A stretch of 35,989 nt of DNA, from positions 1 through 35,989 of the IMG/VR virus record IMGVR_UViG_3300028393_000183; one strand, 5' to 3'. Origin of the DNA: a virus. Shown in pieces: positions 2,390-34,986 of this stretch. The first letter of the stretch is position 1. Every line of letters starts with the position of its first letter. The notes under the pieces are model-generated. The model did no database searches and was not told the DNA's origin. It saw nothing but the letters and a program-made list of their open reading frames with translations. Made by a program: the position numbers and the translations under genes.

Positions 2390-2400
2390 TTTTATTTTTT

Positions 2401-3453: not shown

Positions 3454-3470
3454 TGTATTAAAATTTTACC

Positions 3471-3503
3471 CAAATATAAGAAATTTATGGCTATTTAAGG
3501 CAA
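3471..3503 (-). promoter_or_regulatory. Bacteroidota-type promoter for the tail-fibre genes
   Basis: On the minus strand the sequence reads TTG (3503-3501), 22 nt, then TATATTTG (3478-3471), about 17 nt before the ATG at 3453. It matches the TTG / TAnnTTTG consensus with a slightly long spacer. It would let the fibre genes be expressed separately from the 1125-residue gene upstream. Confidence 0.5.
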
Positions 3504-3506
3504 AAA

Positions 3507-6500
3507 TTAATCCTGTTCCTTCCCTATTCCTTGTGTTGCCCTAGCATCTTTTAAATCATATAAAATATCCTCGTCAATAGCTTCTTTCTCGCCAAATAAC
3601 TTTAACTTAATTTCTTCTGTAGCAAATGTTTTTAATCTTTGTATTTCTTTAGTTAATTCATCTTTTGTCGCAAGATTTGGACCTTTGCCGTCAACTATTT
3701 TTGTTACTATATTCCCTTTTTCATCAACTACTGGGAATCCTTTTTTATGAATATTTGTTATCAATTCTTTCATTAAACTATCTCTTTCATCTACAAATTT
3801 GTAAAATTCTTTATTTGTAATTGGTCTACCCTTATCATTATAATTAAACATAGTATTTCTATCCATTGATGATGAAGTTACGGTAGCGTCTAATAATGAT
3901 GGCAAATCCCTTTGGTCAAATTGTTTGTCATTTTGTACTTTCATTCCATAAAATGTTGGTATTGCATACAAAATTGCCTCTGCCCCTGATGCTTGATATC
4001 CCTTTCTAAAGTCTTGGACAAATAATGGCTCAAGTAAGTCACTTGATAATTCTTTTTTAATATTATATGGTTTACCAGAAAAACCTTTATTTGTAGCTAT
4101 ATCAGCCCCTATGCCAAATAGAGGATTAGCTTTACCCCTGAAAAATTTATAGGACTCTTGTACTACATCAACTTTTTTAGCCTGTCCATTAGCTCCAATT
4201 TTTTGAGCAGGTCCCAATCTACCTCCAGATAAAGAACTAAGAGTAGAAGAACCTATCATAACTAAGAATTTAACTACAGAGCTATATGGTCCGAATAAAT
4301 TCAATGACCATCCAGTTTTTGAATTTTTTATCTGACCAAAAGTAACACTCTCTGGGTCCCAATCAACATCCATATCCTTATTCAAAGAGAAAGCAGCCAT
4401 AATTAAAATGGAAGTAGAAATACCCCTAACTGTTGCTTTTATAGCTCTAGCTCTACCCTCTGGATTCATGCTACTATAGTAACCTTTCGGTCTTCCTTCT
4501 TTGTCTTTTGGTCCCCATTTCTTATTTGAAATTATATCGCTTAATCCCAATTTATTCAACGTAGAAGCAAGTAATTTAGGTGACCATAAAACAGCCCCTA
4601 AATATGGCTCAGCCTCTCTTGCCATAACTTTACCTCTTCCAGTCATATTATTGATTTGACTAGCTAAATCTTTATAATCTTGTAAACTATTTTCAATTGT
4701 TTTACCCTGCTCCATCAAGTTTTCAGCTGCCTTACTAAATAATGAAACTCTAACTTCATTACTAAAACCCGAAAATAATCTTTCAAAAGGAGCAGTTGTG
4801 TATTTTGCCACACCAAATCTTTCAAGTAGATTTTTTCTACCCATCGACTCTTCTCGCATAGATGTTTTAATTCCCTTTGGATCTAAAATATCTAAACCTG
4901 ATTTTTCAATCATATCCCACAAGGGCTTATTTTCATGTATTTCTATAAGCCTTCTTGTAAATGCAGCTTCACTTTTAGCAGCAATCCATTGAAATTTTAA
5001 TGATTGTAATGCTGGCTTGTTTTTACTTATACTTACAGTAGGCAAAAATTTACCTTTTTCCTTTTTTACCGATAATCCCCATGCTTCAGGGTCCATCATA
5101 ACTGAATTACTTTGCACAAATACAGCAGAGTTATCTATACCAGCTTTTAATGCCATTACGGTATTGGCAAATTCTTTTCCTACTTGTTTTACCTGTCCCC
5201 ACTTACCTTCTTTTTCCATCCTATCCTTGTCAGCTGCTACAAGAAAATCATGTTTTAAATTATCTATTTTACTAACCCCATCTAAATAATCATTATAAAG
5301 TTTTTCATATTTTTTCTTTACTTCAGGATTTTGTATAAATGTTTCTGGTCTAGCTTTTTCTTCAAATTGTTTATTTTTTATCTTATCCTGTATTTCTTTA
5401 GCTCTTGCTTCGTTTCTTTTTACAATAGCTCTTAACTTAGATTCATCATAATAACCACCTTCTTTTCTAGCTTCTTTTAATTGTTTTTCTAAATCTAATA
5501 TTTCTCTATTTTTTTCAATTTTCTTTTTCTCTTGCGCTTTTGCACCGCCTTTTGCTTCTTCTATTGATTTCTTTAATTCAGTTTTTCTTAGTTCTTCTTC
5601 TTTTTGTTTTACTTGTTCTGTTTTTTCAGTTTTAGTTATTTGTGGGAATTCAGCTTTTACCCCATACTTTAAATCTAAAATTTTTGATGCTAAATTAGCT
5701 TCTCTATTAATGTTTAATAAATTAGCTTTTGCCTCATTAATTGTTTTTTTAGCTTCTTTATATTTGCCTGCCATTACATCTATTACATCCCTTTCTGTCA
5801 ACCCGTCTATTTCATCTTTTAATATACCATGAATATTTTTTACTATTTCTTCAAATTTTTCAATACCTTCTTCAGCATATATCTTTACTAACTTTGCAAT
5901 ATCTGGTGAAATTCTAAATAAATCTACAACTGGTCTAGTCGGGTCTGAATATAATTTACCTCTTGATTCTTTTAATTTTTGCCTAATATCATTAATTACA
6001 TCAGACCTTTCTTTACTATAATCTCTTTTAGCACCTCTTGTTTTTTTAGCTTCTACTTTTGCCTTTGCAAATTCTTGTTCAGCTAAAATCTTATTATTTA
6101 TTACTTCTAAAGTTTCTTTTTCTTTTTTAACTTTATCTAGTTCTTTTTGTATATTCTTATAATCCTCTACAACTTTCCCCATTTGGCTGTCAGTCAATTC
6201 CTCAACGCCATTGGCATCCCTAATTACAGTAACATAATCACTTAATGTTTGTAATTGTTCTAATGGCGAAGCAGCTGTACCTTGCAACATTCTAAAGTTT
6301 CTACCCATTGTTGCACCAGACTTCAATTTAGCCTCTGTAAACCTAGCTAATTCTCTTTGTACTTTTTTGTTAAATGGATCTTTTACTAATTGTGCGTCTA
6401 AATCTGATGCATACATTTTTAATATTTCAGATTCTACAGCACTTGTAGGTAATGCCTGCTCCATTCTTTTTACTAATGATTCTAAATCGTACCCTTTGGA

Positions 6501-6884
6501 TAATTCATCTACTGCTTGCTGTCTTATTTCCTCATCTGTAATTACTTTACCTTCGTATTCTGGTAAGCCAATTTCAAGCCTCCTTTGCAAGTTTTCCTCT
6601 TTTGTAATACCCCTTAAGGTTTCTTCATAACTTTCAGTTTCTTCGGAAGCTTCAACCCTTTGCTTGCTTGATCGAATTCGTTCACTACTTTTGGTGAAAT
6701 CTTTCCTTGCGCCTCTAGGACGTGAAATTTCTTCCTCTGCGCTTCGCTCTTGTACGGCATCTTGTATTATTTTTGATTTTGATAAATCTTGTTCTAAAAG
6801 GTAATCTTTAAGCTCTGCCTCGGTAAATTCTTTAAATTCGCCTTTGGATATTTCAATAAGATATTTGCAAGGGTTTTTTGCCAT
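3507..6884 (-). CDS. Very large virion/cargo protein with phage polyvalent-protein-type C-terminal domain
   Basis: A 1125-residue protein. Residues about 235-510 are highly charged and predicted coiled coil (Lys/Glu-rich). Residues about 570-960 resemble the conserved domain near the C-terminus of many large phage proteins ('large polyvalent protein associated' type). Visible landmarks are APFERLFSGFSNEVRVSLF, NNMTGRGKVM, LWSPKLLASTLNKL, a hydrophobic helix near 818-834 and SVTFGQIKNSKTGWSLNLFG. Such proteins are usually packaged in the virion and ejected with the DNA; that role is inferred. No peptidoglycan hydrolase or protease motif was found. The ATG overlaps the ferritin stop by one base (TAATG), which implies translational coupling. 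Confidence 0.7.
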   Translation of the reverse strand: MAKNPCKYLIEISKGEFKEFTEAELKDYLLEQDLSKSKIIQDAVQERSAEEEISRPRGARKDFTKSSERIRSSKQRVEASEETESYEETLRGITKEENLQRRLEIGLPEYEGKVITDEEIRQQAVDELSKGYDLESLVKRMEQALPTSAVESEILKMYASDLDAQLVKDPFNKKVQRELARFTEAKLKSGATMGRNFRMLQGTAASPLEQLQTLSDYVTVIRDANGVEELTDSQMGKVVEDYKNIQKELDKVKKEKETLEVINNKILAEQEFAKAKVEAKKTRGAKRDYSKERSDVINDIRQKLKESRGKLYSDPTRPVVDLFRISPDIAKLVKIYAEEGIEKFEEIVKNIHGILKDEIDGLTERDVIDVMAGKYKEAKKTINEAKANLLNINREANLASKILDLKYGVKAEFPQITKTEKTEQVKQKEEELRKTELKKSIEEAKGGAKAQEKKKIEKNREILDLEKQLKEARKEGGYYDESKLRAIVKRNEARAKEIQDKIKNKQFEEKARPETFIQNPEVKKKYEKLYNDYLDGVSKIDNLKHDFLVAADKDRMEKEGKWGQVKQVGKEFANTVMALKAGIDNSAVFVQSNSVMMDPEAWGLSVKKEKGKFLPTVSISKNKPALQSLKFQWIAAKSEAAFTRRLIEIHENKPLWDMIEKSGLDILDPKGIKTSMREESMGRKNLLERFGVAKYTTAPFERLFSGFSNEVRVSLFSKAAENLMEQGKTIENSLQDYKDLASQINNMTGRGKVMAREAEPYLGAVLWSPKLLASTLNKLGLSDIISNKKWGPKDKEGRPKGYYSSMNPEGRARAIKATVRGISTSILIMAAFSLNKDMDVDWDPESVTFGQIKNSKTGWSLNLFGPYSSVVKFLVMIGSSTLSSLSGGRLGPAQKIGANGQAKKVDVVQESYKFFRGKANPLFGIGADIATNKGFSGKPYNIKKELSSDLLEPLFVQDFRKGYQASGAEAILYAIPTFYGMKVQNDKQFDQRDLPSLLDATVTSSSMDRNTMFNYNDKGRPITNKEFYKFVDERDSLMKELITNIHKKGFPVVDEKGNIVTKIVDGKGPNLATKDELTKEIQRLKTFATEEIKLKLFGEKEAIDEDILYDLKDARATQGIGKEQD

Positions 6885-7384
6885 TATACATCAGATATGT
6901 GTTGGTCAAATTCTAATAATTCTTTTGTTGATTCTGCTATTTTATATTTAGCCAATAAGTCACCATAATGACCAACAGCTTCTCTTTGAATTTTTAAAAA
7001 TTTCAATAAATATTGAGCTACAACTACATCTTCATCTTCTGCTTTTTCGTAAAATTCTTTATATTGATTATATACATCCATTTCAATGTTATAACCAACT
7101 TCCAATGCATCGCCAATATCTGTTACTTTATCGGTAATAGCATCTATTTTTGGCAAATCTGCGCAATCACCCATATCATTCATAAATTCTACATGCATTT
7201 GATAATGAGTCAATTCTTCAGCACTTTCTGCTAAGAAGTACTTTTGGCTACCAAAATAACCTATTCTTTGCAATTGGTTTGCAAGGCTTTTCCATAGATT
7301 TGATTGATACAATTCTATATAAATTGCATCCTGCATGCCTTTTTTCATGCTTGGGCTTAATAAGGATTTTAATCCGTTGGACAT
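6884..7384 (-). CDS. Ferritin (FtnA-type ferritin-like di-iron protein)
   Basis: A 166-residue protein, the usual length of bacterial non-haem ferritin. It aligns by eye with E. coli FtnA along most of its length: IELYQSNLW with NLELYSSLLY, AEELTHYQMHVEFMNDMG with QEEMTHMQRLFDYLTDTG, and a matching last helix. Ferroxidase ligands E17, E50, H53, E94 and Q127 correspond to E24, E57, H60, E101 and Q133, with spacings 33, 3, 41 and 32 (FtnA: 33, 3, 41, 33). FtnA E130 corresponds to A136, although E135 is adjacent. Family knowledge: ferritins form 24-subunit shells, oxidise Fe(II) and store iron. The gene overlaps the 1441-residue gene by 16 nt and the 1125-residue gene by 1 nt, so it belongs to the putative virion-cargo operon. 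It may store iron, limit oxidative damage or be packaged. Confidence 0.8.
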   Translation of the reverse strand: MSNGLKSLLSPSMKKGMQDAIYIELYQSNLWKSLANQLQRIGYFGSQKYFLAESAEELTHYQMHVEFMNDMGDCADLPKIDAITDKVTDIGDALEVGYNIEMDVYNQYKEFYEKAEDEDVVVAQYLLKFLKIQREAVGHYGDLLAKYKIAESTKELLEFDQHISDV

Positions 7385-13638: not shown

Positions 13639-14129
13639 AACTCAATTTTTTTAATTTCTTCTAATGCTTTTAAATATTCAGTTTTAATATCTGTGCCAGT
13701 TAAATAATTTAAATGTGGCTCTAGTATATTTTCTTCTATTTTTTCAACTATTTTTTCTTTCTCTTCATCATTTAAATTATTATATTCAGATTTCATGTCA
13801 TCTATTCTGTGAAAAGTAGTCCAAATACAATCTTCTATAATATATAAAACCCTTCTTGTTCCCGGAATTGTAATCCCAGTGTAAGGGGCTGTTATTTCAT
13901 TCCATTCATCCCCATCTATTGAAACTGCAACCTTACCATAAGAAACAATATAAGGATGCTCTGTTTTGTGAATTTTGCTTGTTATTAAAGATTCAGCAGG
14001 CATAAAAATCTCTCTTATATACATGCCATCTGTAAACCTATGAGTAGTAAGGCAATGAACTGGTTCGCAATTTTCTAACATAGCTGCTTCTAGCTCATCT
14101 AATCTATTATCGTTTTCCCTAATAATCAT
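13635..14129 (-). CDS. Cupin-fold phage protein
   Basis: A 164-residue protein whose residues about 35-110 show the small cupin pattern: DGMYIREIFMPAESL, then H54 and H58 in SKIHKTEHPYIVSYG, then PYTGITIPGTRRVLYIIED and a late H107 (WTTFHRID). Similar small cupins recur beside tail genes in phages. The three histidines could hold a metal, although cupin motif 1 is incomplete because the usual following Glu is not obvious. The C-terminal 50 residues are a charged helix (DEEKEKIVEKIEEN). Its start codon overlaps the stop of the muzzle-like gene by one base. A minor tail protein or a metal- or sugar-binding protein is possible; no substrate can be read from sequence. Confidence 0.65.
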   Translation of the reverse strand: MIIRENDNRLDELEAAMLENCEPVHCLTTHRFTDGMYIREIFMPAESLITSKIHKTEHPYIVSYGKVAVSIDGDEWNEITAPYTGITIPGTRRVLYIIEDCIWTTFHRIDDMKSEYNNLNDEEKEKIVEKIEENILEPHLNYLTGTDIKTEYLKALEEIKKIEL

Positions 14130-17100
14130 TATCTATTATTCAATGGTGAATTAATATATTTAGTCGTTGCGCTATTCAAATATACGAAAGAATTGGCACT
14201 TGCTTTCTCAAATTTTATTACAATATAGTTGCCCTTCAAACTATCCCCTTCTATAAGTCCTCCGGGGCTGTTAGAATCCTTTAAAAATGATGCTTGATAC
14301 TCTGATTCCAAAGTAACAAAATCTGCTTCTAAAAGCTCACTTTGTTGCTTTATACTTGTGCTTCCGCCTGTGTCCATTTGAGTATATATTACCGGACAAG
14401 CCCATGCTGTATTGCCTGTTTCCATAACCGAAATCCATGTCTTTTTATCCATTGAATTTGTGTTAAAAACGTTGGTTATTGAGGCATTATATTGTGTCCC
14501 ATAGAAATTACAATAAGGAAGTGTTCCATGTTTCCATATTTGACCATTTTTAAAGGTAAATAAGGTAGTATTCACTTCGCCCATAAACTCAGGGAAATAA
14601 GAATAAAATGACTCAAATGCATTCTCGTTTTCAGCAAATGAAATAGTATATGGGTCTTGGTGGTATTTTAAAGTAACACCCCCTGATTCGTATCTATTAA
14701 TCTCTTCCATTGCAATTATGTACTTATTAGTATTTGCATCAAATACCCCATAAATACATGGATTACCAGTATAAATACCTCCCGAAACAGGTATCCCATT
14801 ATTTAAATCATTTCTATAAGATGCTGTTTTAGATACAAAAAAAGCATTAGTTTTATTGATGATACTAATTGGTTCAATCCCATTTTGACTTAATCTACAA
14901 ACCACACCTCTATAATTATCTATAAAATAATCTGCAAAGTTATTCCAAGCCAAGCTTGTTGCTGCATCCCCAATACCATAATTACCTGCGTAATATTGTA
15001 TTTTATTAATTAATTGATTACTATTTGCTTGTAATGGATTACCAGTTACATCTTTGACAATTTGAGTCAAAATAGGCACATTACCTACTTTAAATTGTTG
15101 GAATACCTTCAAATATCTATCTCTAACATGCAATCTTAATACATCCCCAAATGTTCTATCATATTCATCAAAATCTTCATAAATAAATCTATTTGTAGCA
15201 TTAATATTAGTATTTGATTGATAAGCCTGACCAAATCTTATAACAGTTGGAAAATAAGTTTGTCTTGCATTTTCATCAATAACAGATGGTCTACCATTAC
15301 TATTGGTAACCAAGTTAAATGTATCATTAAAACTTTGCTCTATAATGCCAATAGTTTTATCTTTTACAATTTGAAAATCAAAATCCATCGGTTGAATAAT
15401 AATATTATTTGCACCAATGGCATCATTTGTAGACTGTGCTACTATCCATATTTTACCTGTTGGGGGAACACTAAATCTTTTATTAATTGTAAATGTTGTA
15501 GGCGTATTTTGAACTATATTATTTATTTCTATAGGTAATAATGAAATAGTATATTTAGCAGCAAAGGGACTTAAATTTGTACATATAATAGCATAAACTG
15601 AAAATGTAGAAGTACCATCAGAATCCATTGTAAATGTTCCGTTAATTGATACTATTTTTTCAGCTAAAGTAGATTTATTATAAAAGAAATAACCCGTACT
15701 AGCCCAAACAGGAAAGAATCCAGCAGTTAAAAATGCTTGAGCATTTGGTTGTGTTTGTATTCTATATGCAGTATTATCTATAGTATTTGTAACATTTATC
15801 GGAAATGTTTCACTTCTATTACCATATGCTCCAGCTGTATCTATATCAAATCTACCTGATGAATATGTAAAATTATCGGAAAATGGAACTGTTCTAAGTC
15901 TATAAAATAAATCTCCATTTGTAACAGGTATAATAGCTGGCACGCCTGATGGATCTATGCTAGATTGTGTTTGTAATAAACCCATATGATATCTATCAGC
16001 TGTTCCCGGATTGCCGATACCATACTCCTTGCCAAATTCATAAAAAAATCTTTGTGTAGAATCAGCATTTGTAGAATAATTATATAATAAAATCTCATAA
16101 TGCTGAAAATCAGGAGTACCGGGAAAATCAAAATTTAAACCTATATCATCATTAGGATATCTTATTTTTAGGAAATTACCGTTCGCTGTGTATGTATTAT
16201 TGTCTAAAGGTGGAGATGGTAATGTTATGTTATATTCAAATGAAGAAACTGTACCTACTATTTCATAATCATATTGGGGCGGATTTGTAAGATAATTTAT
16301 ATCATTACTTACATTATATCTAGCATAAAATCTAATTCTATCTCCTTCTGTGTAATTATATGAAACAACATTTTGAGTTGAACTTATAGCCTCATTATAT
16401 GTAGCTATATTTCCAATACCTATATAAATAAATCTTGAATTATCTACCCCATTAGTAATGCCTGCAAAAGCTGATTCACTAACCCAACATAATCTTTTAT
16501 TATAGGTTGTATTATTTGATCTTAAAACTTGATAATAAGTTGCATATAATGGGGGTATATTAAATATAGATAAATTAATTTCAGGGAATGTAACGCCTTC
16601 TACTCTTGCAGGTGTGTTAATTGTACCTAATGCCGATGTTTGTGCGCCAATTGTTCTTCCCTGTGCATCAAAATATTGAATAGCATATTGATAACCAGAG
16701 TCCCATACATTAGCAAATCGGGTATTATCTGAATCTAATAAAGGGAATGTCTTAAAACCTACAGAGGTCAAAACAAATCCATCTGGATATTCCATAACCA
16801 ATTTATTCCCAACTAATGATATTTGAGTAAATCCTTTTACTATCATTGCGGCAGAAATTCCAGCTAAAATATCACTAACCAAATAAGAACTAGTTATCCC
16901 AGATGTTGAATAAGATGTACTCAAATCTGTTCCATCAGATGCAAATGAATTTATATAATATCCTCCAGCGGCATTATTTAATGTTTCCACCTCATTATCT
17001 AGCCCATTTGTACCAGTACCATATAGGTATATATTCATAAAAGTACCAGTACCATTATCTATACCATCTACTGTTGCAAGCAATAATAATCCAGCTTGGT

Positions 17101-18169
17101 CATAAAAAAAACTAGAAGAACCTGTAGTTTGACTAGCAAACAAATCCATTGTTGTTTTATCATACCCCTCAGTAATGCCAGCATACAATAATACATTACC
17201 ATTTGCTAATTCTCCTGCATTTGCTTTTTGAGGAACCCAATCTTGTAATTGACCTGTTTCTATTACATCTATTTGGATATAAATAGAATCATTGCGAAAT
17301 TTTAAATTATAAATATCGTTATCTAATATAGATAAACTACTTTTATCTAATGATTCTATTAAATACCAATCACTTGTTAAACCATTTGTTGTTTCTCTAA
17401 AGCAAACTTCAATTGCTTTAACATCAGGTCCGCCAGTTGAAAATAAAACTGCTATTCTTGCGTTATTTGTTGCAGTATTATCTGTAAGTGTAAGTGAAGG
17501 CTGTTGAGGTAAAGGAACTATACTTTTTGAACTCCATACAGATTTTTCATTATTATCATAAACATATCTATATGAAAATTGGAATAATTTATTTCTTAAA
17601 TTATTTACAGTTATTGTAGTATCATTTTCATAAGTAACTTTTGGAGGCATAACTGGAGGAGCTTTTGCTACTAGCAAATATTCTAATTTCCAATTTGAAC
17701 CATAAAGATTAACTACATTTAAACTTTTAGGAGGATTATAGCCATCATTAAAAAATAAAATATCACCTTCTAAATCTCTATAAAATATATTAACAGATAA
17801 AACTTTATATGATGGATTAAAATTTAAAATATCTATACCATTACTATCAGTTTTACTTTGCAAAACAATAGCTATCTCCTCTCTATTTAAATCATAATAA
17901 AGTATGGTATTATAACCATTACTATTCCATAAAAAATAATAAGCCCTGTTTCTAACTCTATCAGAATAAAATCCTATTACTTTATTTGTACCAGCAGGTG
18001 GAGAATATGATATTAAGGTATTCCCCAAAATATTTGAAACTACCTTATCTTGCCCAGCACCTTGTGCATCTTTAGTTACATTTAATGCATCAACATAGTC
18101 ATTATTACTAATTCTATAATTAGCATCATCTAAGTTGAGTTTTCCACTAAAGGGTGTATTTATTATCAT
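14129..18169 (-). CDS. Large tail stabilisation/muzzle-like protein
   Basis: A 1346-residue protein with N-terminus MIINTPFSGKLNLDDANYR, followed by ISNNDYVDALNV. This opening is characteristic of the large tail 'stabilisation' proteins of crAss-like and other Bacteroidota podoviruses, equivalent in position to the muzzle protein of phicrAss001. It is rich in Tyr, Asn and Thr and looks all-beta throughout, with no enzyme motif and no coiled coil. It lies 3 nt after the 258-residue connector gene, as expected for a protein that closes or extends the tail tube. The assignment is by family resemblance and order, not by an alignment I could run. Confidence 0.7.
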   Translation of the reverse strand: MIINTPFSGKLNLDDANYRISNNDYVDALNVTKDAQGAGQDKVVSNILGNTLISYSPPAGTNKVIGFYSDRVRNRAYYFLWNSNGYNTILYYDLNREEIAIVLQSKTDSNGIDILNFNPSYKVLSVNIFYRDLEGDILFFNDGYNPPKSLNVVNLYGSNWKLEYLLVAKAPPVMPPKVTYENDTTITVNNLRNKLFQFSYRYVYDNNEKSVWSSKSIVPLPQQPSLTLTDNTATNNARIAVLFSTGGPDVKAIEVCFRETTNGLTSDWYLIESLDKSSLSILDNDIYNLKFRNDSIYIQIDVIETGQLQDWVPQKANAGELANGNVLLYAGITEGYDKTTMDLFASQTTGSSSFFYDQAGLLLLATVDGIDNGTGTFMNIYLYGTGTNGLDNEVETLNNAAGGYYINSFASDGTDLSTSYSTSGITSSYLVSDILAGISAAMIVKGFTQISLVGNKLVMEYPDGFVLTSVGFKTFPLLDSDNTRFANVWDSGYQYAIQYFDAQGRTIGAQTSALGTINTPARVEGVTFPEINLSIFNIPPLYATYYQVLRSNNTTYNKRLCWVSESAFAGITNGVDNSRFIYIGIGNIATYNEAISSTQNVVSYNYTEGDRIRFYARYNVSNDINYLTNPPQYDYEIVGTVSSFEYNITLPSPPLDNNTYTANGNFLKIRYPNDDIGLNFDFPGTPDFQHYEILLYNYSTNADSTQRFFYEFGKEYGIGNPGTADRYHMGLLQTQSSIDPSGVPAIIPVTNGDLFYRLRTVPFSDNFTYSSGRFDIDTAGAYGNRSETFPINVTNTIDNTAYRIQTQPNAQAFLTAGFFPVWASTGYFFYNKSTLAEKIVSINGTFTMDSDGTSTFSVYAIICTNLSPFAAKYTISLLPIEINNIVQNTPTTFTINKRFSVPPTGKIWIVAQSTNDAIGANNIIIQPMDFDFQIVKDKTIGIIEQSFNDTFNLVTNSNGRPSVIDENARQTYFPTVIRFGQAYQSNTNINATNRFIYEDFDEYDRTFGDVLRLHVRDRYLKVFQQFKVGNVPILTQIVKDVTGNPLQANSNQLINKIQYYAGNYGIGDAATSLAWNNFADYFIDNYRGVVCRLSQNGIEPISIINKTNAFFVSKTASYRNDLNNGIPVSGGIYTGNPCIYGVFDANTNKYIIAMEEINRYESGGVTLKYHQDPYTISFAENENAFESFYSYFPEFMGEVNTTLFTFKNGQIWKHGTLPYCNFYGTQYNASITNVFNTNSMDKKTWISVMETGNTAWACPVIYTQMDTGGSTSIKQQSELLEADFVTLESEYQASFLKDSNSPGGLIEGDSLKGNYIVIKFEKASANSFVYLNSATTKYINSPLNNR

Positions 18170-18172
18170 GTA

Positions 18173-18949
18173 TTACGCCTTAACTGTCATTCTTTGTGAT
18201 ATTAAATTCCATTCATAAGCTTGGTCTAAATACATAGGTTTAAACTGTGCATTAGCCAATCTTCTTTGGTTAAAAAACTCTTGTTTTCTATCTCTTTTAT
18301 CTCCTAAGTTACCTTTTCTAGTACTTGGCATTGTTGCTATATCTCTCCATGCAAGCCAAGCTAATAAAGCTTCTCTAAAATGCAATGGAATCATAAACTT
18401 TTCTTCTGGATTTGGACTAGACAAATATTCAATCATAAGATAATCATAGTAAAATTGTTGATTTAACAATATTACACCATTAGAATCATCTATGTTAAAA
18501 GAACCTACAAATGGAGAACCACTAGGGTAACCATATATATTTGTAAAACCATAACCATCCCAATAATTATAAAATATTGGTGCATTATAAATTTGATTCC
18601 AATTTACTAAAGTTTGATCATTTGTAAGAGCTTGTCTATTTGGTAATTGGTCACCAAAAAATGTTAATTTTCTATCAAATTGCAAAGGTATAATTTGTCC
18701 TACTGCATTTAATACCCCTATTTTAGTATAACTGATGTAATCATTAGGTAATTGAACCGTATAATTTGTTGTATCAACAGGCAACTTTACAGACCTTATT
18801 TTGTAGAAAAAGTCTAATCCAAGCCTTTCCATACCTCTATATGCTATATTGTATAGTTTGGCATACTTATGTACGCTTTGCTCCGATTCATCAATGTAGT
18901 CATTGATAACTGAGTCTAATGTTATAAATTGTCTTTCTTGTGATGCCAT
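18173..18949 (-). CDS. Head-tail connector / tail ring protein
   Basis: A 258-residue protein starting MASQERQFITLDSVINDYID, with KYAKLYNIAYRGMERLGLD and then VKLPVDTTNYTVQLPNDYIS. A helical N-terminus followed by a beta domain with a 'LP-x-DY/F' turn recurs in connector proteins of the P22 gp4 / T7 gp11 type and in crAss-like ring proteins. The C-terminus is helical and basic (RKGNLGDKRDRKQEFFNQRR). It lies between the co-chaperonin and the muzzle-like gene. A ring under the portal is the likely role. Confidence 0.65.
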   Translation of the reverse strand: MASQERQFITLDSVINDYIDESEQSVHKYAKLYNIAYRGMERLGLDFFYKIRSVKLPVDTTNYTVQLPNDYISYTKIGVLNAVGQIIPLQFDRKLTFFGDQLPNRQALTNDQTLVNWNQIYNAPIFYNYWDGYGFTNIYGYPSGSPFVGSFNIDDSNGVILLNQQFYYDYLMIEYLSSPNPEEKFMIPLHFREALLAWLAWRDIATMPSTRKGNLGDKRDRKQEFFNQRRLANAQFKPMYLDQAYEWNLISQRMTVKA

Positions 18950-18951
18950 TT

Positions 18952-19224
18952 TTAATTATTTGAAACGTAAGATAAAATATCCATGTGACGTATTAAAAAA
19001 TGAGATTCCCCATTAATTACAAACTCTTCACCTGCTCCTTTTATATGAAAAATCATATCCCCTTTCTTTGCTTCCATTTCTACCTTTGCAGTGCCATTAC
19101 CAACTGCTACAACAACAGCTTTGCTACTTCTAGCCATAGCATATTGTGGGATATATAATCCTCCCTCAGTCATTGTATCTGGTTCACATGGTTTTACTAA
19201 AACGTAATCTCTAATTGGCTTCAT
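18952..19224 (-). CDS. GroES-type co-chaperonin (Cpn10)
   Basis: A 90-residue protein, the length of bacterial GroES. It reads MKPIRDYVLVKP at the start, has the mobile-loop motif EGGLYIP (residues 20-26, GroES: GGIVL), then VVVAVGNG (37-44) and KKGDMIF (53-59), and ends LIRHMDILSYV. All hallmarks of the family are in order. Family knowledge: GroES caps GroEL; phage versions such as T4 gp31 adapt the host chaperonin to fold the capsid protein. Here the gene sits inside the connector cluster, 2 nt before the 258-residue gene, so it would be made with the late proteins it probably helps fold. Confidence 0.88.
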   Translation of the reverse strand: MKPIRDYVLVKPCEPDTMTEGGLYIPQYAMARSSKAVVVAVGNGTAKVEMEAKKGDMIFHIKGAGEEFVINGESHFLIRHMDILSYVSNN

Positions 19225-19237
19225 ATTTATTTTTTAA

Positions 19238-19864
19238 TTATTGATCTACTCCATCATTGGCTGTATCAATAGGTCTTGATTTTTCAAAAGCTAATTGACC
19301 TTTAATATATTCTACTATTAATGGCATATAATCATCAGGGATTATCAATGTTGAAGTCAAATCTGATGAATCGCCACCACTAATCATTCTTAAAGTTGCT
19401 TTATAAGATGTCAAAGGTATAGAGCTTTTAGCATATATATGCTTTCCTTCAATCCAATAAAGAATTTTATTTTGTATTGGTCGCATATTGTCTATATAGG
19501 CAACTTGATTCATGCTTAAAGGTATTGCTGTCTGAGATGTTTTCTTGTCACCAACGAACTGTAAAGTGGCAACACCTTCATTTTTACCTAAAGCAAATGG
19601 AATCTGAGGTAATGGTACTGAATAAGTAACATTATCTACTTGTTCTGCTGATATATCTAAATTAGTATAAGTTGTATAAAAAGAATTATTAATATAGGCT
19701 ATTCCATCCATTTGAATGCTATCTGTATAATTTTTTTTAACAGCTAATCCAATTGCATCATTTAACCACTGATTAACCAAATTATATGTAATATTTGAGT
19801 CATCAGATGGCTGTCCGTTATATATTTGTCTTAATATTCTTTCTATTAATGCGTATCTAGTCAT
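19238..19864 (-). CDS. Head-tail connector / ring-like protein
   Basis: A 208-residue protein with a helical start (ALIERILRQIYNG, NQWLNDAIGLAVKKNY), a beta-rich centre and a C-terminal helix (PDDYMPLIVEYIKGQLAF). This plan matches the two other proteins of the cluster. The start overlaps the stop of the 236-residue gene in TAATG. A structural role at the portal or upper tail is inferred from order and fold pattern. Confidence 0.55.
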   Translation of the reverse strand: MTRYALIERILRQIYNGQPSDDSNITYNLVNQWLNDAIGLAVKKNYTDSIQMDGIAYINNSFYTTYTNLDISAEQVDNVTYSVPLPQIPFALGKNEGVATLQFVGDKKTSQTAIPLSMNQVAYIDNMRPIQNKILYWIEGKHIYAKSSIPLTSYKATLRMISGGDSSDLTSTLIIPDDYMPLIVEYIKGQLAFEKSRPIDTANDGVDQ

Positions 19865-20574
19865 TATTGTCCTGTTTGTGTTACTTGATTAGCATATTGC
19901 TCTACCATACCATCTTGTAAATTTAATCCAATTAATTTTAAAGCACGAGTGATAATTTCTAAAATATCAACATTGTACCAAACTGGTTGTTGACTTCCAG
20001 TAGTAGGAGTTACCCCTGCCCCTGTTTGAGTTGGAGCATAAACAGGTCTTCCACTTACTGTAGTGTAAGCCCATACAATATCTGGAGCTGACCTTACATA
20101 TGATACAATAGGATTACCAGATAAAGTAGCTATATTTTTAGGATAAAACTGAAATTGGTCCTTTTGTAATAAATATATTGGATTGCTAACAATAGGGTCT
20201 ATTTCGCTATTGTAATATGAGTATAAACTATCTTGTGGAACAAATCTAATTCTGTGTAAACCATCTGTTTCCCACATTGCATCTACTTGTAAAAAATTGG
20301 CTGGATATGCTGCTATTCCTGTGGTTGTATTTGGAGCCAATGTTGTTTGTAAAATCAAAGGTGTTAATCTTTGTCTAATATCTTCATTTTGGCTATAAGA
20401 AATACGAGCTTGTGGTCTACCATATTGATATTGTTGAAATTCTCCCAATAAATAATCTTGATATGAAACCTGTGCTTGATTTATAATCAAATTAAAATCC
20501 GATGGCGTTAAATAACCGTTTTGTGCCTTGTTAATTGCAAACTGGCAAATGCGGTACATATCATTAACATTCAT
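19864..20574 (-). CDS. Head-tail connector / ring-like protein, first gene of the tail operon
   Basis: A 236-residue protein starting MNVNDMYRICQFAINKAQNG. The pattern NGYLTPSDFNLIINQAQVSY, then YPANFLQVDAMW and FYPKN, then a C-terminal helix (DILEIITRALKLIGLNL) is shared with connector proteins of crAss-like phages as I remember them. It is the first gene after a terminator and a promoter box. A ring protein below the portal is the likely role; no enzymatic motif is seen. Confidence 0.55.
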   Translation of the reverse strand: MNVNDMYRICQFAINKAQNGYLTPSDFNLIINQAQVSYQDYLLGEFQQYQYGRPQARISYSQNEDIRQRLTPLILQTTLAPNTTTGIAAYPANFLQVDAMWETDGLHRIRFVPQDSLYSYYNSEIDPIVSNPIYLLQKDQFQFYPKNIATLSGNPIVSYVRSAPDIVWAYTTVSGRPVYAPTQTGAGVTPTTGSQQPVWYNVDILEIITRALKLIGLNLQDGMVEQYANQVTQTGQ

Positions 20575-20591
20575 GTATATAAGTTATACAA

Positions 20592-20599
20592 CAAATATA
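20592..20599 (-). promoter_or_regulatory. Promoter -7 box for the connector/tail operon
   Basis: TATATTTG on the minus strand, 18 nt before the ATG at 20574, fits the Bacteroidota TAnnTTTG box. No TTG lies at the usual distance upstream, so it may need an activator or be weak. It directly follows a terminator and thus begins a new transcription unit. Confidence 0.5.
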
Positions 20600-20611: not shown

Positions 20612-20644
20612 AAAAAAGCCCCGTAATTTTTAGGCTACAGGGCT
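20612..20644 (-). terminator. Rho-independent terminator after the 297-residue gene
   Basis: Arms AGCCC (20617-20621) and GGGCT (20640-20644) extend by GTA/TAC after one mismatch. On the minus strand the hairpin is followed by a six-T run (20612-20617). It separates the capsid genes from the connector/tail genes. Confidence 0.8.
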
Positions 20645-20667
20645 TCTTCTATTTAGAGGGGGAAAGA

Positions 20668-21642: not shown

Positions 21643-23067
21643 TTAGTTAGCTTGTACAATGATGAATTGGTTTGCTGCACAAACACGAGTTGATCTGTAA
21701 GTGATCATCGCGATTTGATTAGTCATTGTTCCATCGGTAGGGTTTGGAGAACCACCACCAAATTGCCATACTCTGATACCATTACCAACTGTACCGCCTT
21801 TAGGTGGCTCTTGATACATGATAGTGATATTTTTGTAAGCTTGAGCAGTTCTTGCATCCTTAGTTTCACCCATTGGATAGATTAAACCAAAATTACGGAA
21901 GTAATCGTTTTGAGGAGTCAAACCGGTTGTTACTTCAGTGTTGAATTGGCTATATTTCTTAACATTCAACAAGTAACCATCGATATAGATTTCTTGGAAA
22001 CCATAAGAAACAGAAGCTTCTTTAGATTTTTCACCAGTTCCATAAACGAAAGCACCAGCTGGGTAAGCAGCAAAGATACCATCAGAGAAATCTTGTTTTT
22101 GGAATACGTCAGATAACCAAGCAGATTGCTTAGCACATCCGTTAACGTCCATAATACGAGTGATTTCATGTAACTTTTGGATATCCAAGTTACCCGGAGT
22201 GTAACCAACAGTTTCACCATCAGCAACTACTTTAGGGATAATACCCTGAGCACCTGCTGAGTTAGTCATACCGTTATCGTTATTTGTTTGCAAATTACCA
22301 CGCATTAATTTTGCTTCTACGTTGTTTTTGAAACGAACAAGAGTCTTATACATACCTTTGTAAGTAAACGCAGTCACACCATTAGCAGCCATATCCGCAG
22401 ATACAGGATACTCATAGTATGTTTCAGCCATTTGAGCTAAGTCAGTATTGCTCCAACCATCACGAATTTGAGTGATGTTGTTGTCATACTTTTGGTCCAA
22501 ATGAATTAATGGATTGATTTGAGTTGAAGCTTCACCAGCATCAGTGTCACCAGCGAATAATAAAACCTCACCAGCTAATAAAGAAGTGCTACCAGCAGAT
22601 CTAAATCCTTGACTAGCTAATAATGGTCCTACTACGAATGTAAATGCATATGGAGTAGTTGTATCAATTGATAAAATTTTACCTTCAATATTTGAAGAAG
22701 CTACACGCAATGTTTCACCAACTCTTAATGGAGATTGTGTACCACTGTTATAATAAGCTTCAGCGTTTAAAGTTAAAGTAATGTTAGTGTCAACTGGAGC
22801 TGAAACTGTGCCATTGTTAACAACAGCAACCATTAATTTACCTCTGTTCTCAAACCAGAAGAAATTTTGGTTTTTAACCTCTTCCATTCCAGCATGAGCA
22901 GCTAACCACCATGTGAAATCTTCATTACCATACTTTTCAGTATATTGCTTGTAATATTGAGGAGTTAATAATTGTAAGTCAACCATAAGTTGACGATTTT
23001 GCGACTGGAGGGATATTGCACCCGGTTGCAAAATGTTTGAAGTAGGTATACCCGGACCGCTTGCCAT
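21643..23067 (-). CDS. Major capsid protein
   Basis: A 474-residue protein starting MASGPGIPTSNILQPGAISL. It contains LQLLTPQYYKQYTEKYGNED, then FTWWLAAHAGMEEVKNQNFF, then WFENRGKLMV. I recognise these as features of the major capsid (HK97-fold) proteins of crAss-like and related podoviruses. It lies after the scaffold-like gene and before a strong terminator. Its DNA uses more GC-containing codons than its neighbours, which fits heavy expression. The HK97 fold is inferred from family, not directly visible. The co-chaperonin encoded downstream may assist its folding. Confidence 0.75.
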   Translation of the reverse strand: MASGPGIPTSNILQPGAISLQSQNRQLMVDLQLLTPQYYKQYTEKYGNEDFTWWLAAHAGMEEVKNQNFFWFENRGKLMVAVVNNGTVSAPVDTNITLTLNAEAYYNSGTQSPLRVGETLRVASSNIEGKILSIDTTTPYAFTFVVGPLLASQGFRSAGSTSLLAGEVLLFAGDTDAGEASTQINPLIHLDQKYDNNITQIRDGWSNTDLAQMAETYYEYPVSADMAANGVTAFTYKGMYKTLVRFKNNVEAKLMRGNLQTNNDNGMTNSAGAQGIIPKVVADGETVGYTPGNLDIQKLHEITRIMDVNGCAKQSAWLSDVFQKQDFSDGIFAAYPAGAFVYGTGEKSKEASVSYGFQEIYIDGYLLNVKKYSQFNTEVTTGLTPQNDYFRNFGLIYPMGETKDARTAQAYKNITIMYQEPPKGGTVGNGIRVWQFGGGSPNPTDGTMTNQIAMITYRSTRVCAANQFIIVQAN

Positions 23068-27376: not shown

Positions 27377-29422
27377 TTAACTAAGGCTTGGCGTATAACT
27401 TTTTACCAAAGGTTCCCTTTTTACTTTAAGTTGTACTGGCTCCATTAAACATACCAAAAGCATCAAAAAAGATACTGTTTGGTCAAACTCTGTTCTATTA
27501 TTTGGGTCAAACTTTTTAGCGTCTTCTAGCAAGTTTTCAAAATCTATTGAATCAATATGATTTTCAAAATACATGACTCCAACATCAACTTGTTTTGTTA
27601 AACTAAATGGAGTAGTTGGGAATCCTTTGAATCTTTCTGAATCTTTTTTAGTTGGGTCTATTGATATTTTAGGATATAATCCCAAATAAGACACCCTTCC
27701 CCTATCTCTAAAATAAGACAAGTAATCATCACTATTATGCTCATACCAAGCTCTATACCCATAAAATTCAGCCGCTAACATTACTTGCTCATGCAAGGTT
27801 TCTTTTATTTGTGGTCTACCATAAAGATGACCTATTGCTTTGCCCGTACTCTTAGGGTCAAGTAAATTATATCTTCTTCCTATCCATGCAGAAGCTTTTG
27901 AACCATATTTACCTCCTTGACTGTTGCTATAACCATCAATTGCTATTGCTCCATCTTCTGTTCTGCCCGGTTTCTTTAAATTTATATCGTATGTATGTTT
28001 ATTTTCTTCCCCTTTTGGCGGCAATTGTGTAATTTTCCAATGAAAATCCTCTTCTTTATCTGAAGCCTCCCTCCATCTAACAATTTGGTCTATATCTCTA
28101 TAAAATATTATTTTTCTTTTTAATACAGGATTTTCTTTTAAAAAAACTTCCCTTTCGCCAATATTTAAAGCATTAAATATACACTTATCAGAATCTGTAC
28201 TAAATGCTTCGTCAATTGTAAGTGGTTCTTTTCTAATACGAGCAGACAGTGCTCTTGGATTATTTTTAACTGTTTCTCTATCAGCTAAAATTTGGTCTAA
28301 AGTTTTATTCTCATCTGGATAACCAAAGTCATCAAAATTTCTAGTTCGTTTAGCAGACATAAAGAATCTATAAAGACCACTTGAAGTCGTACCATTATCT
28401 TGCCGCTTATCCTGATTACTTTCCTCCCATAATAATTTAAATGCATCTTGTACGCCATCTTTTTCTGTTGTAAGTTTTTCTACTGTGGTGGTATACAATG
28501 CCTTACCAATAATTTGACCTTCGTCATCAAGCAAACAATAACGCACAACCTCATGTCTATCGTATACGTTTACTTCTGTTGTTTTTCCGCACTCATCCGC
28601 TACATATCTATGTAATTTTTGACCATCATAAGCTACGGCATCTGCTGATTGAAAATCTATAACTGAACCTAATTCATCCTTATCAATATTTTCCTCTGCC
28701 TTTTTACCTCTTACGTTTGTTTTTTGGAATCTCATCTCAGACTTTGGATTTACTCCCAAAGACATATCATATTCTGGTCTAAAAAACTTAGGTAATCTTC
28801 TAAATGGATTTACCACTGTCTTAGCAAAGAATTTTTTAGCATCAGAGCCTGTTTTAGACTGAATACCGCCATTTGTCATCTTAGTCCTTGTAGTATATTC
28901 AGTTACAAATAAACCAGCTACAAATGACTTACCAAAACGTCTTTTAGTTACTTCAAGCATTCCCATACACAATGGGTCTTGAATACAATAATCCATAAAA
29001 TAAAATTTCTCAAGGTCTGGATTTCTAAATTTTGGATAACCAATATCAATTGACCACCATTGTAGATATAAATAATGCAATCCAGTCAAAAATGTAGGCT
29101 TACCATTATTCATGTACCAAAAACCATTTAATCTTCTATCCCATTCTTGTCTTTTAAATTCTTCAAGTCTTTCATCATAAAAATCAACCTCATCATCTTT
29201 CTTTTTCTTATCAAAATCATCCCATTTCTTCATAGTGTCCATATACCAAGAAGGAAGTGGAATTCTTTTCCAATATTGTTCTGATATGTTATCAGACCTT
29301 TTATAAACATCCCTAAATTCTAATTGTTTAGTAATTATGTTAAAAACATAACCTTCTGGTGGTAAGTTACATAACAACCCTTGTATATTTACTATACTTC
29401 CACCTTCAATTTTATCGTACAT
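27377..29422 (-). CDS. Terminase large subunit
   Basis: A 681-residue DNA-packaging motor. ATPase domain: Walker A-like TKRRFGKSF (residues 159-167, K165), Walker B YVADE (273-277), coupling motif TTT (311-313). Nuclease domain of RNase H fold: D496 in IAIDGYS, E552 in AAEFYGY and D647 in TEFDQTV are the likely metal-binding acids. It pumps DNA into the prohead through the portal and cuts it. All key motifs are intact. It begins 2 nt after the small coiled-coil gene in the TerS position and is followed by the portal. Confidence 0.92.
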   Translation of the reverse strand: MYDKIEGGSIVNIQGLLCNLPPEGYVFNIITKQLEFRDVYKRSDNISEQYWKRIPLPSWYMDTMKKWDDFDKKKKDDEVDFYDERLEEFKRQEWDRRLNGFWYMNNGKPTFLTGLHYLYLQWWSIDIGYPKFRNPDLEKFYFMDYCIQDPLCMGMLEVTKRRFGKSFVAGLFVTEYTTRTKMTNGGIQSKTGSDAKKFFAKTVVNPFRRLPKFFRPEYDMSLGVNPKSEMRFQKTNVRGKKAEENIDKDELGSVIDFQSADAVAYDGQKLHRYVADECGKTTEVNVYDRHEVVRYCLLDDEGQIIGKALYTTTVEKLTTEKDGVQDAFKLLWEESNQDKRQDNGTTSSGLYRFFMSAKRTRNFDDFGYPDENKTLDQILADRETVKNNPRALSARIRKEPLTIDEAFSTDSDKCIFNALNIGEREVFLKENPVLKRKIIFYRDIDQIVRWREASDKEEDFHWKITQLPPKGEENKHTYDINLKKPGRTEDGAIAIDGYSNSQGGKYGSKASAWIGRRYNLLDPKSTGKAIGHLYGRPQIKETLHEQVMLAAEFYGYRAWYEHNSDDYLSYFRDRGRVSYLGLYPKISIDPTKKDSERFKGFPTTPFSLTKQVDVGVMYFENHIDSIDFENLLEDAKKFDPNNRTEFDQTVSFLMLLVCLMEPVQLKVKREPLVKSYTPSLS

Positions 29423-29812: not shown

Positions 29813-30484
29813 TTATGCATTTAATTTTTTGGCATCACTTTTTGTTACACCGACTAGACATTCCCCTTTTTCTACTAATTTAGTTAAATTATGGTCAATC
29901 GCAATTATTTCCTCTCTTGTATTATCTTCATTTTCATAATGCCTTAATCTTATAATGCTTTCTTCTTTGCCATCATCTCCTTGATATATAATTTGATAAT
30001 CAGCAGATTTAACAGTATCGCAAACATTTCCCTTTAATTCACCACTTGTTATATATAATTTGTTCTTAATTTGCTCTGGTTCAATTCCTTGCATAAAACC
30101 TTTATATGGCTTAAATACCCTTAATGCTGTAACATAATTATGCAAAGTGTTCCATGTGGAGCCTCCCCTTTCTCTCCATAAAAAACATTCTTGCTCTGGT
30201 ATTGAATAATATTTAATATCAGATGATGCTTCTTTTGTTGGTGGTTGATAGTTAAAAATTCTATATGTATCATGTGTAGCATTATGGTGTATTAAAATAT
30301 CTGCACCTTCAGTTACACCAATTCCATCAACAACAATTGCATTTACAGGCTTAACATAACGCATATTGAAGTTATCATATTGCCTTTCTAATTTAAGTTT
30401 AGTTCCATCTGCAAAAGTGTGAAAGTTCTTACTTTCTAAATCCACTTTAATAATTACTCTACCTTTTGGAGCTATTAATTTCAT
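29813..30484 (-). CDS. Possible GroES-fold phage protein, first late gene
   Basis: A 223-residue protein starting MKLIAPKGRVIIKVDLES. It continues with VVDGIGVTEGADILIHHNAT, then YYSIPEQECFLWRE. The order (strand with RV-I-K-V, 'VVDG' turn, 'GADILIH' strand, late strand) is reminiscent of a GroES-like barrel with insertions, followed by a second region ending EKGECLVGVTKSDAKKLNA. The resemblance is weak and I could be wrong. It starts the operon that leads to the terminase, after a good promoter (30553-30582). Confidence 0.45.
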   Translation of the reverse strand: MKLIAPKGRVIIKVDLESKNFHTFADGTKLKLERQYDNFNMRYVKPVNAIVVDGIGVTEGADILIHHNATHDTYRIFNYQPPTKEASSDIKYYSIPEQECFLWRERGGSTWNTLHNYVTALRVFKPYKGFMQGIEPEQIKNKLYITSGELKGNVCDTVKSADYQIIYQGDDGKEESIIRLRHYENEDNTREEIIAIDHNLTKLVEKGECLVGVTKSDAKKLNA

Positions 30485-31974: not shown

Positions 31975-33840
31975 TTAAAATATTACTTCTCCGCCTTCTT
32001 CATCTTTGTATGGAAGCCATGATTGATTAGCTTCTTTTCTTTTCCAAAATTCAAGATTTTTTTTATTCAACATCTCTTGTATAAAATCCCTTCCTTCAAT
32101 AAAAAATCTTCTTCTATCCCAAATATACTCAACCATTATAAATCCTTTTCTACCAACACTTTTCTTTTTAATTTTCTTTGAATGAAACTCTGCTACAGGG
32201 CTACTTGGGTCTGTCTGCGCAAATGGTCTATGGTAAACGGTAATGTTATCCATTTTATTATTCCACATAGCACCATCATTAACATCAAATACATCAGGAC
32301 ACTTGTAGTTATTAGTCCTATCTCTTTCCATTAATTTTGGATGCGCAATAACCCAAAAATACACATCATTTTTCTTTGCAAATCTTGAAAAATCAGCTAA
32401 TAATGTTTCCAAATACTTATCAGTTCTGCCACCAAAACCTTTATAATCATTGGTCATTTGGTTAAACGGATCAATACAACAAAAATCAACCTTCTCTTGC
32501 ACAATTAACTCCAAGAACTTTTCCTTGATGTACTGTGGAGTAGGCGAAAGCATTTCTGCGCTAATGTAAAAAATATGCTTAGAAATAAAATCATATGCTG
32601 CCTCGTAAATATCATTCGCTGGTCTATTTGGATTAAAAGGAGTACACTCACAACCTAAAAGCATCTCAACAAAATCATGGAAATATTCTTCAGCAGGCGT
32701 ATCTTCCGGAGAAAATGTAGCAATTTTTTCGCCATACATGATGATTCGACTAAGCAATTGAGATTTTTGCCAAGCTGTTTTTCCATAATTACCAATACCA
32801 GTAAGTAATGTAATCTCACCTCTTTTTGGTTTAAAAAGATAATCAAGCTCTTTTACACCAACTCCCATAACTTTATCAAAACCATTTTGATTGATAAGCA
32901 AAGCTTTGTCCTTTACATCAATCCCATATACCACATCTTCAACCCTGTAATTATCCCCTTTTTCATCTACAAATTCCTTTTTAACATCAATTTCATAATT
33001 GGTGGTTTTGTTTACTAACTTTTCCTTTTGAAGTATAGCTGAACCAGCAATAGCCCTATTTGCCCTATATCCGCTCTTTACAGCCCCTCTCATCTCCGAC
33101 ATAGTAAAGTCATTACTCACTAAATATTCGGTCGCTATGAGGCTTAAAGCGGCCTCCTCGTTGATTCCAAACCTACAACACGCAGATGCCAACTTAAAAA
33201 TGTAAGTATTTCGCTCTCCAGTCACAAAAGCATCGTTTTTATTCGTAAGCCACTTGAGTATTCTACGAAAGTTCTCGGAATCGTCAATTGTTTCAATTTC
33301 GTTGACTACAACCTTTTCAATTTTCTTAGCCTTTGTAAAAACCACAGCTTTTTCGTTAATGTAAATATCTGGATCAAAACTTTCGTAACAAACCCTACTT
33401 ACATTGATTCCACTACGGTCAATTTCTGGAAATACCTCTTGAAGCGATTGAAAATGCTCTCTGTGCTTTTTACCATCTGCTATTTTAACCAAAGCTTTTA
33501 ATCCATTACCCGATGGGCTAACCCAACAAGCATAGACAAAATCCTTTTGAATTATTTCAGTCTGCTTATCCCTCAAATCAGAAATATCATCAAAATCTAA
33601 AACTATAAATCCACTATGTGCAACCAATTGCTCATCCTTTCGATCTAATCCAAATTTACCACTAAAGCAAATTGATGGTAAATTTAGTTTAAGCTTACTA
33701 GCTTTTTCCTTATCCAAAGCCAATCTAATATCCAAAACCAACCCCTTACTTGCACCTAACTTAATCCTTTCAAGTGCTTTGTCAATAGTTATAAAATGCG
33801 GTTCCTTGCTAAAAATGTTTTTAAAAATAGTAGCTATCAT
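31975..33840 (-). CDS. Primase-helicase (VirE-N/BT4734-like plus RecA/DnaB-type ATPase)
   Basis: A 621-residue protein. N-terminal domain (about 50-165): CFSGKFGLDR, GFIVLDFDDI (acids D82, D84, D85) and WVSPSGNGLKALVKI, as in VirE N-terminal/BT4734-like proteins related to archaeo-eukaryotic primases. A linker domain follows at about 185-270. The ATPase (about 325-580) has Walker A GIGNYGKT (348-355), Walker B FCCIDPFNQM (D457) and AHPKLMERDR near 499. It probably primes and unwinds DNA at the fork, like T7 gp4 but with another primase type. Whether the N-terminal part still synthesises primers cannot be told by eye. It sits between the initiator-like gene and ssb. Confidence 0.8.
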   Translation of the reverse strand: MIATIFKNIFSKEPHFITIDKALERIKLGASKGLVLDIRLALDKEKASKLKLNLPSICFSGKFGLDRKDEQLVAHSGFIVLDFDDISDLRDKQTEIIQKDFVYACWVSPSGNGLKALVKIADGKKHREHFQSLQEVFPEIDRSGINVSRVCYESFDPDIYINEKAVVFTKAKKIEKVVVNEIETIDDSENFRRILKWLTNKNDAFVTGERNTYIFKLASACCRFGINEEAALSLIATEYLVSNDFTMSEMRGAVKSGYRANRAIAGSAILQKEKLVNKTTNYEIDVKKEFVDEKGDNYRVEDVVYGIDVKDKALLINQNGFDKVMGVGVKELDYLFKPKRGEITLLTGIGNYGKTAWQKSQLLSRIIMYGEKIATFSPEDTPAEEYFHDFVEMLLGCECTPFNPNRPANDIYEAAYDFISKHIFYISAEMLSPTPQYIKEKFLELIVQEKVDFCCIDPFNQMTNDYKGFGGRTDKYLETLLADFSRFAKKNDVYFWVIAHPKLMERDRTNNYKCPDVFDVNDGAMWNNKMDNITVYHRPFAQTDPSSPVAEFHSKKIKKKSVGRKGFIMVEYIWDRRRFFIEGRDFIQEMLNKKNLEFWKRKEANQSWLPYKDEEGGEVIF

Positions 33841-34914: not shown

Positions 34915-34986
34915 ATGACAATAATACTTTCAATAGCTATTTGGGAATTACTTAAAATATTATATTACAAATTAATTAATAAATAA
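34915..34986 (+). CDS. Putative 23-residue hydrophobic peptide coupled to ninG
   Basis: ATG at 34915, TAA at 34984-34986, whose last base is the first base of the ninG ATG (TAATG). The peptide is MTIILSIAIWELLKILYY followed by KLINK: one uninterrupted hydrophobic helix with a basic end, as in small single-span membrane peptides. It starts just after the predicted transcription start with an A-rich leader. It could be a real membrane peptide or a leader ORF that controls ninG translation; length alone makes chance possible. Confidence 0.45.
   Translation: MTIILSIAIWELLKILYYKLINK

Follow-up and report, generated by a model that had tools for sequence, protein, structure and literature searches.

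Why would a phage place the gene for a chaperonin lid among the genes for its tail? Could the position tell us what parts of the virion depend on the chaperonin cage? In T4-type phages, which are known to encode co-chaperonins, the client is the capsid protein. We analysed a stretch of viral DNA of 35,989 nucleotides (IMG/VR record IMGVR_UViG_3300028393_000183; hereafter the window) that carries a gene for a Cpn10/GroES co-chaperonin of 90 aa at 18952-19224, on the minus strand. An earlier note on this DNA, based on the letters alone, had described a full-length GroES with an intact mobile loop, set between two connector/ring genes with gaps of 2 and 13 nt, and had held that the proposal would fall without a significant Cpn10 match or with loss of the mobile loop across homologues.

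The gene is a complete frame of 90 codons with ATG as start, and its spacing is reproduced exactly: it follows the 208-aa gene at 19238-19864 after 13 nt and precedes the 258-aa gene at 18173-18949 by 2 nt. The product matches Pfam family PF00166 with an E-value of 1.9e-18 (66.7 bits, cut-off 21.1) over profile positions 3-91 of 93, as well as PHROG 3188, 'co-chaperonin GroES' (1e-15). Among PDB chains, phmmer retrieves 7ekq (1.9e-15) and 1lep (1.9e-12). An AlphaFold2 model, with 39 sequences of the window group as input, reaches pLDDT 90 and pTM 0.76. In a Foldseek search of the PDB the top matches of this model are all GroES/Cpn10, with TM up to 0.84; they include Thermus Cpn10 (TM 0.83), human mitochondrial Hsp10 and E. 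coli GroES. T4 gp31 (1g31) appears lower in the list, at TM 0.61 and 16% identity. Both the profile search and the structure prediction that the earlier note had proposed as checks thus agree with a full-length GroES.

The mobile loop, with its core TEGGLYIP at residues 19-26 (19147-19170, minus strand), is likewise intact. Its pattern GG-hydrophobic-x-hydrophobic, GGLYI in the window, is kept in 60 of 60 ring-located Cpn10s, three of which have S in place of the first G, so the loop has not been lost across homologues. No indel is seen in the loop when the window protein is aligned with host-type (Bacteroidota) GroES and with the E. coli sequence. The roof hairpin is 5 residues shorter than that of E. 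coli GroES, which might suggest a phage adaptation that enlarges the cage, as in gp31. We rejected this reading because the sampled Bacteroidota GroES, 89-91 aa long, normally have the same short hairpin; the short roof loop is simply the Bacteroidota form of the protein.

What, then, are the neighbours of this gene? The structural genes of the window (terminase, portal, capsid protein, a 297-aa protein, ring-type genes and a 1346-aa virion protein) all lie on the minus strand. Directly upstream of Cpn10, the 208-aa protein matches PF25702, CrAss_Ring_2, with 9.1e-6 and 25.9 bits, slightly below the gathering score of 27. The R2 of one deep relative matches the same family with 5e-4, and the gene order agrees with that of crAss001 for an R2 assignment. 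Directly downstream (minus strand, as for all these genes), the 258-aa ring/connector protein matches phrog_13977, a virion structural protein (6.5e-16), and has a homologue in gp96 of phi38:1 (2.7e-9). Ahead of R2 lies a 236-aa ring protein (19864-20574) that matches phrog_14543, also a virion structural protein (2.2e-11), and gp95 of phi38:1 (6.2e-16). The 1346-aa virion protein at 14129-18169 (phrog_14478, 4e-56) takes the place of crAss001 gp44, a muzzle/stabilization position. With the names R3/R4, R1 and muzzle assigned by position, the cassette reads R3/R4-type, R2, Cpn10, R1, muzzle-type. The claim that Cpn10 sits between two connector/ring genes is borne out by the CrAss_Ring_2-like protein on one side and the PHROG virion structural protein on the other, and the neighbours can be refined, as far as sequence and order allow, to tail-barrel ring genes of the crAss001 R2/R1 type. 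The major capsid protein (474 aa, about 52 kDa; 21643-23067, minus strand) was recognised by weak profile matches to the MCP-position proteins of elemo (8.1e-10) and phi38:1 (3.7e-8).

Several other genes of the window merit a brief record. A ferritin-like protein at 6884-7384 on the minus strand (PF00210, 3e-13; rubrerythrin, 1.2e-7) is encoded between two very large late-region genes (1125 and 1441 aa), and a possible involvement of iron in the virion, or close to it, deserves attention. An open frame of 806 codons at 2-2419 (minus strand), with long collagen-like repeats of the GTSGTSG type, runs off the end of the window and is probably a tail fibre; plus-strand ORFs with PEVPVVPEVP are its antisense shadow. 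The replication end holds a BT4734-like/PriCT primase-type protein (31975-33840, minus strand; 1.4e-15) and a NinG recombination protein (34986-35531, plus strand; 1.2e-15).

Is the arrangement a peculiarity of one contig? The order R2-Cpn10-R1, with both ring genes directly adjacent, recurs in 58/58 close loci found with the Cpn10 profile, and the gap from Cpn10 to R1 varies only from 2 to 6 nt. An independent collection of deeper loci, found with R1 and R2 as bait, reached 45-60% identity, with the R1 protein down to 45%. Here Cpn10 lies between R2 and R1 in 46 of 48 loci, some contigs being counted twice. Extra genes, for example endonuclease-like ones, have entered the R2-R1 interval in several deep loci and Cpn10 is retained. 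Only two loci, L341 and L417, lack it; their slot holds another small ORF common to both. The position of Cpn10 is not a matter of chance: about a hundred relative loci have the gene at this place.

Some details of these loci stand apart from the main result. The slot ORF of L341 (3590-4000) and L417 (4630-4960) encodes 105-133 aa beginning MYTL and lies between R2 and R1. Endonuclease-like genes are inserted at differing points of the capsid/ring cassette (L181, 2748-3629; L340, 3050-3740; L409, 4620-5516), a parallel to crAss001 gp37 and gp41, and L342 carries between Cpn10 and R1 a frame (2870-3990) with a start like that of GDSL/SGNH esterases (VAYGDSYTDPG). Discarded as relatives were the human gut record MT838442, whose Cpn10 resembles chromosomal Bacteroidota groES and whose contig has no ring genes, and L006/L007, where no other window gene was matched around Cpn10.

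The relatives are metagenomic records without known hosts. Among 83 such records, 81 contain a Cpn10 above the Pfam cut-off. Because 41 of them were picked through the gene for a 223-aa protein discussed below and 38 through ring genes, this frequency is not an artefact of selection. GroEL was found above cut-off in 0/83, although the records may be fragments in which it could be missed in some cases; one gave a 14-bit, sub-threshold local match. The ORFs of the window, itself a 36-kb fragment, include no GroEL. In a tree with Bacteroidota GroES, the ring-located Cpn10s, close and deep, form a single clade with support 100/100, and the window protein shares at most 43% identity with any of 80 sampled Bacteroidota GroES. 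The median dN/dS of Cpn10 is 0.20, similar to R2 and R3/R4, and indicates purifying selection. On comparative grounds, then, this is no stray gene but a genuine phage co-chaperonin of long standing, strongly conserved and set in an unusual and informative place. We also looked for a co-evolving partner by pairwise divergence. Cpn10 does not follow R2 (r 0.71) more closely than other genes (r 0.80-0.90); R2 is even the lowest, and the distance correlation is uninformative.

With which genes is Cpn10 expressed? Upstream of the R3/R4 gene, in the gap that follows the 297-aa gene, a predicted intrinsic terminator with a 15-pair stem and a T-run (20612-20649, minus strand) divides the ring unit from the genes on the capsid side, and a hairpin with a T-run occurs in this gap in 58/58 loci. 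Just beyond it lies the motif TAnnTTTG (TATATTTG at 20592-20599, minus strand), a candidate Bacteroidota-type promoter element, which we take to be the known Bacteroidota -7 promoter pattern. Of 28 distinct gaps, 20 have it at 24-32 nt ahead of the R3 start, where 2.3 would be expected; it occurs in 0/32 of the gaps between the capsid gene and the 297-aa gene. Between the ring genes and Cpn10, no terminator-like site was seen. This combination of terminator and promoter motif most likely places Cpn10 in the transcript of the ring and muzzle genes, apart from the capsid gene.

On balance, we regard it as probable that the phage Cpn10 is a working late co-chaperonin, a lid for host GroEL, which likely assists folding of one or more connector or tail-barrel proteins. 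It would be made late, on the transcript shared with the tail-barrel ring and muzzle proteins, would form a heptameric lid and would dock through its mobile loop on the Bacteroidota GroEL of the host. The lid is expected to serve the host GroEL because the phage group encodes none of its own. Its most likely contribution would be lid capacity, or a lid tuned to the phage, for folding at least one protein of the head-tail connector or tail barrel. The earlier note had spoken of a 'phage-adapted host GroEL', which is better worded as a phage-adapted lid for host GroEL. As clients, the ring, muzzle or connector proteins stand at about an even chance. The terminator and promoter motif, which split the capsid gene from the ring-Cpn10-ring-muzzle genes, favour such tail-barrel clients. 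As a counterpoint, crAss001 and phi14:2 possess R2, yet the corresponding slot in the former holds an HU/IHF-like gene and the latter gives no Cpn10 match; an adjacent Cpn10 is hence no requirement of ring proteins in general.

Could the lid serve something else, or nothing in particular? It might act as a general booster that supplies more lids, or substitutes for a limiting or shut-off host GroES late in infection, with no dedicated client. The protein is a canonical GroES in its anatomy and has no evident extension for a particular client, which fits this, as does the fact that other phages of the wider group meet the need with groEL and groES together at another genomic site. A booster would not need the near-absolute placement in the ring cassette, though operon inheritance could explain it, and we hold the explanation possible at clearly less than an even chance. 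That Cpn10 is an analogue of T4 gp31 with the major capsid protein as its essential client, its ring position being mere operon history, we consider unlikely. The precedent is the best studied of all, namely the requirement of gp31 for gp23 (PMC6318259), and the capsid gene lies only a few genes upstream and encodes a protein of about gp23 size; yet in the relatives a terminator and a new promoter motif stand between that gene and the Cpn10 unit, and the gp31 features that usually go with a larger cage are either absent or not phage-specific, the loop having normal length and the roof hairpin being of Bacteroidota type. We judge it likely that the order of clients is ring, muzzle or connector proteins before general lid supply, with the capsid protein less likely than either.

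GroES forms rings, and its gene sits here exactly between two ring genes; might the protein have become a small structural ring or plug of the virion, seated between R2 and R1, and not serve as a lid? The GroEL-binding mobile loop retained in 60/60 proteins would be needless in a structural part, a heptamer mismatches the 12-fold barrel, and the crAss001 virion structure shows disulfides between R1 and R2 with no such part described (PMC10172136). We regard this role as very improbable. Even less credence, close to none, goes to a recently captured host groES without particular meaning. Its nearest sampled cellular relatives are indeed Bacteroidota GroES, at up to 43% identity, but the single old clade (100/100), the fixed place across strongly diverged phages and the purifying selection speak against it, and tree and synteny together rule out recent capture for practical purposes. 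A lid for the host GroEL with clients in the tail barrel remains our preferred reading. A Cpn10 fixed in the ring cassette of a phage of Bacteroidota-type bacteria suggests that the host folding cage is borrowed for part of the virion, and a testable prediction follows as to which virion proteins need that cage.

The earlier note had also pointed to a possible second GroES-fold protein, of 223 aa, at 29813-30484 (minus strand), upstream of the gene for the terminase large subunit (27377-29422, minus strand; phrog_6681, 1.7e-72). As regards the fold this suggestion holds; co-chaperonin activity is doubtful. The protein matches phrog_13932, co-chaperonin GroES, with 7.7e-6 over residues 11-117, and has no Pfam match. 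Its structure prediction, at pLDDT of only 65, gave a divided answer. Foldseek returned no significant match. VIA-align, in a second look restricted to Foldseek's candidates, assigned the N-terminal domain (residues 1-108; 30161-30484, minus strand) to the Cpn10 type: the nine best PDB rows are all Cpn10, GroES, gp31 or Cpn20, with Z 5.7-4.0, and the next, unrelated one has Z 2.2. For the C-terminal half, the same second look listed no Cpn10 match. When the profile of the family (41 aligned sequences), or its halves, was compared with Cpn10 profiles by hhalign, there was no signal because the alignment is too shallow (Neff 1.7). A C-terminal Cpn10 fold is seen by profile in the alignment of the isolates (93%), though it was not detected in the window family with its shallow alignment. 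The C-terminal half of phi38:1 gp89 is recognisable as Cpn10 (PF00166, 2e-6), which makes gp89 probably a tandem Cpn10. One motif of the 223-aa family, HHN (residues 66-68; 30281-30289, minus strand), does not vary in an alignment of 45 sequences, phi38:1 among them, and is also found in elemo, ctfjg026 and deep relatives. With so little else conserved, the persistence of HHN suggests that the protein does more than act as a simple lid.

The 223-aa protein near the terminase, with its GroES-fold N-domain, is an older partner of the phage group. Tentatively, we propose that this large group of crass-related phages uses two GroES-fold proteins, each for a separate assembly step: a canonical tail-barrel lid for ring or muzzle folding in the host GroEL, and an ancient modified protein with HHN and a long conserved loop at the terminase/portal end, in a position like that of crAss001 gp15, which may be a packaging or portal assembly factor. 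We give this scheme clearly less than an even chance.

How does the ring-located Cpn10 compare with known systems? Like Bacteroidota GroES, it has a full-length Cpn10 profile, a beta-barrel in the model, an equally long mobile loop and the short roof hairpin. It differs in that the phage proteins form a deep clade of their own, at no more than 43% identity to the 80 sampled sequences, in that GKYAGTE of Bacteroidota GroES is replaced by HIKGAGEE, and in that the gene lies in a virion operon without groEL. With T4 gp31 it shares a phage-encoded GroES fold without a phage GroEL. T4 gp31 takes the place of GroES for gp23, which requires it, and has a mobile loop of 22 residues instead of 16 (PMC6318259). 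In the window protein the loop is not lengthened, the roof hairpin is that of host GroES and not a phage-specific loss as in the gp31 type, and the gene, unlike that of T4, is placed among tail-ring genes. Host GroE is required for lambda heads and for T5 tails (as cited in PMC4294664).

The isolates phi38:1, elemo and ctfjg026 are more distant members of the wider phage group, with terminase, portal and ring genes homologous to those of the window. The Cpn10 profile picks up their small GroES as it does the window protein. Unlike the window group, these sister phages have no Cpn10 in the ring cassette and possess both members of a groEL-groES pair at another site, apart from their ring genes; their R3/R4-type and R1-type genes are adjacent, with neither R2 nor Cpn10 between them, and a tblastn search with R2 found no match in the isolate collection. 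The wider group therefore meets the need in two ways, with both chaperonin components or with a lone lid in the ring operon. Literature searches on crAss or Bacteroidetes phages with GroES or co-chaperonins, subscription papers aside, brought up no description of this arrangement.

The 223-aa protein, too, has counterparts of similar place and very low sequence similarity. Annotated as GroES, phi38:1 gp89 and elemo gp30 lie directly before the terminase, and crAss001 gp15, a 'putative 10kDa chaperonin', lies a few genes before it. At 136 aa, the latter consists of one Cpn10-like domain; the 223 residues of the window protein include HHN and a long, strongly conserved loop. The comparison links gp15, annotated but apparently undiscussed, to a feature of the whole group. 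The tail-barrel genes of crAss001, with ring assignments taken from PMC10172136, run gp40 (R2), gp42 (HU/IHF-like), gp43 (R1) and gp44 (muzzle), the same order of R2, small gene, R1 and muzzle as in the window. The slot between R2 and R1 is thus filled by an HU/IHF-like gene in crAss001 and by Cpn10 in the window, where the co-chaperonin is locked between tail-ring genes across a whole crassvirus-related phage group.
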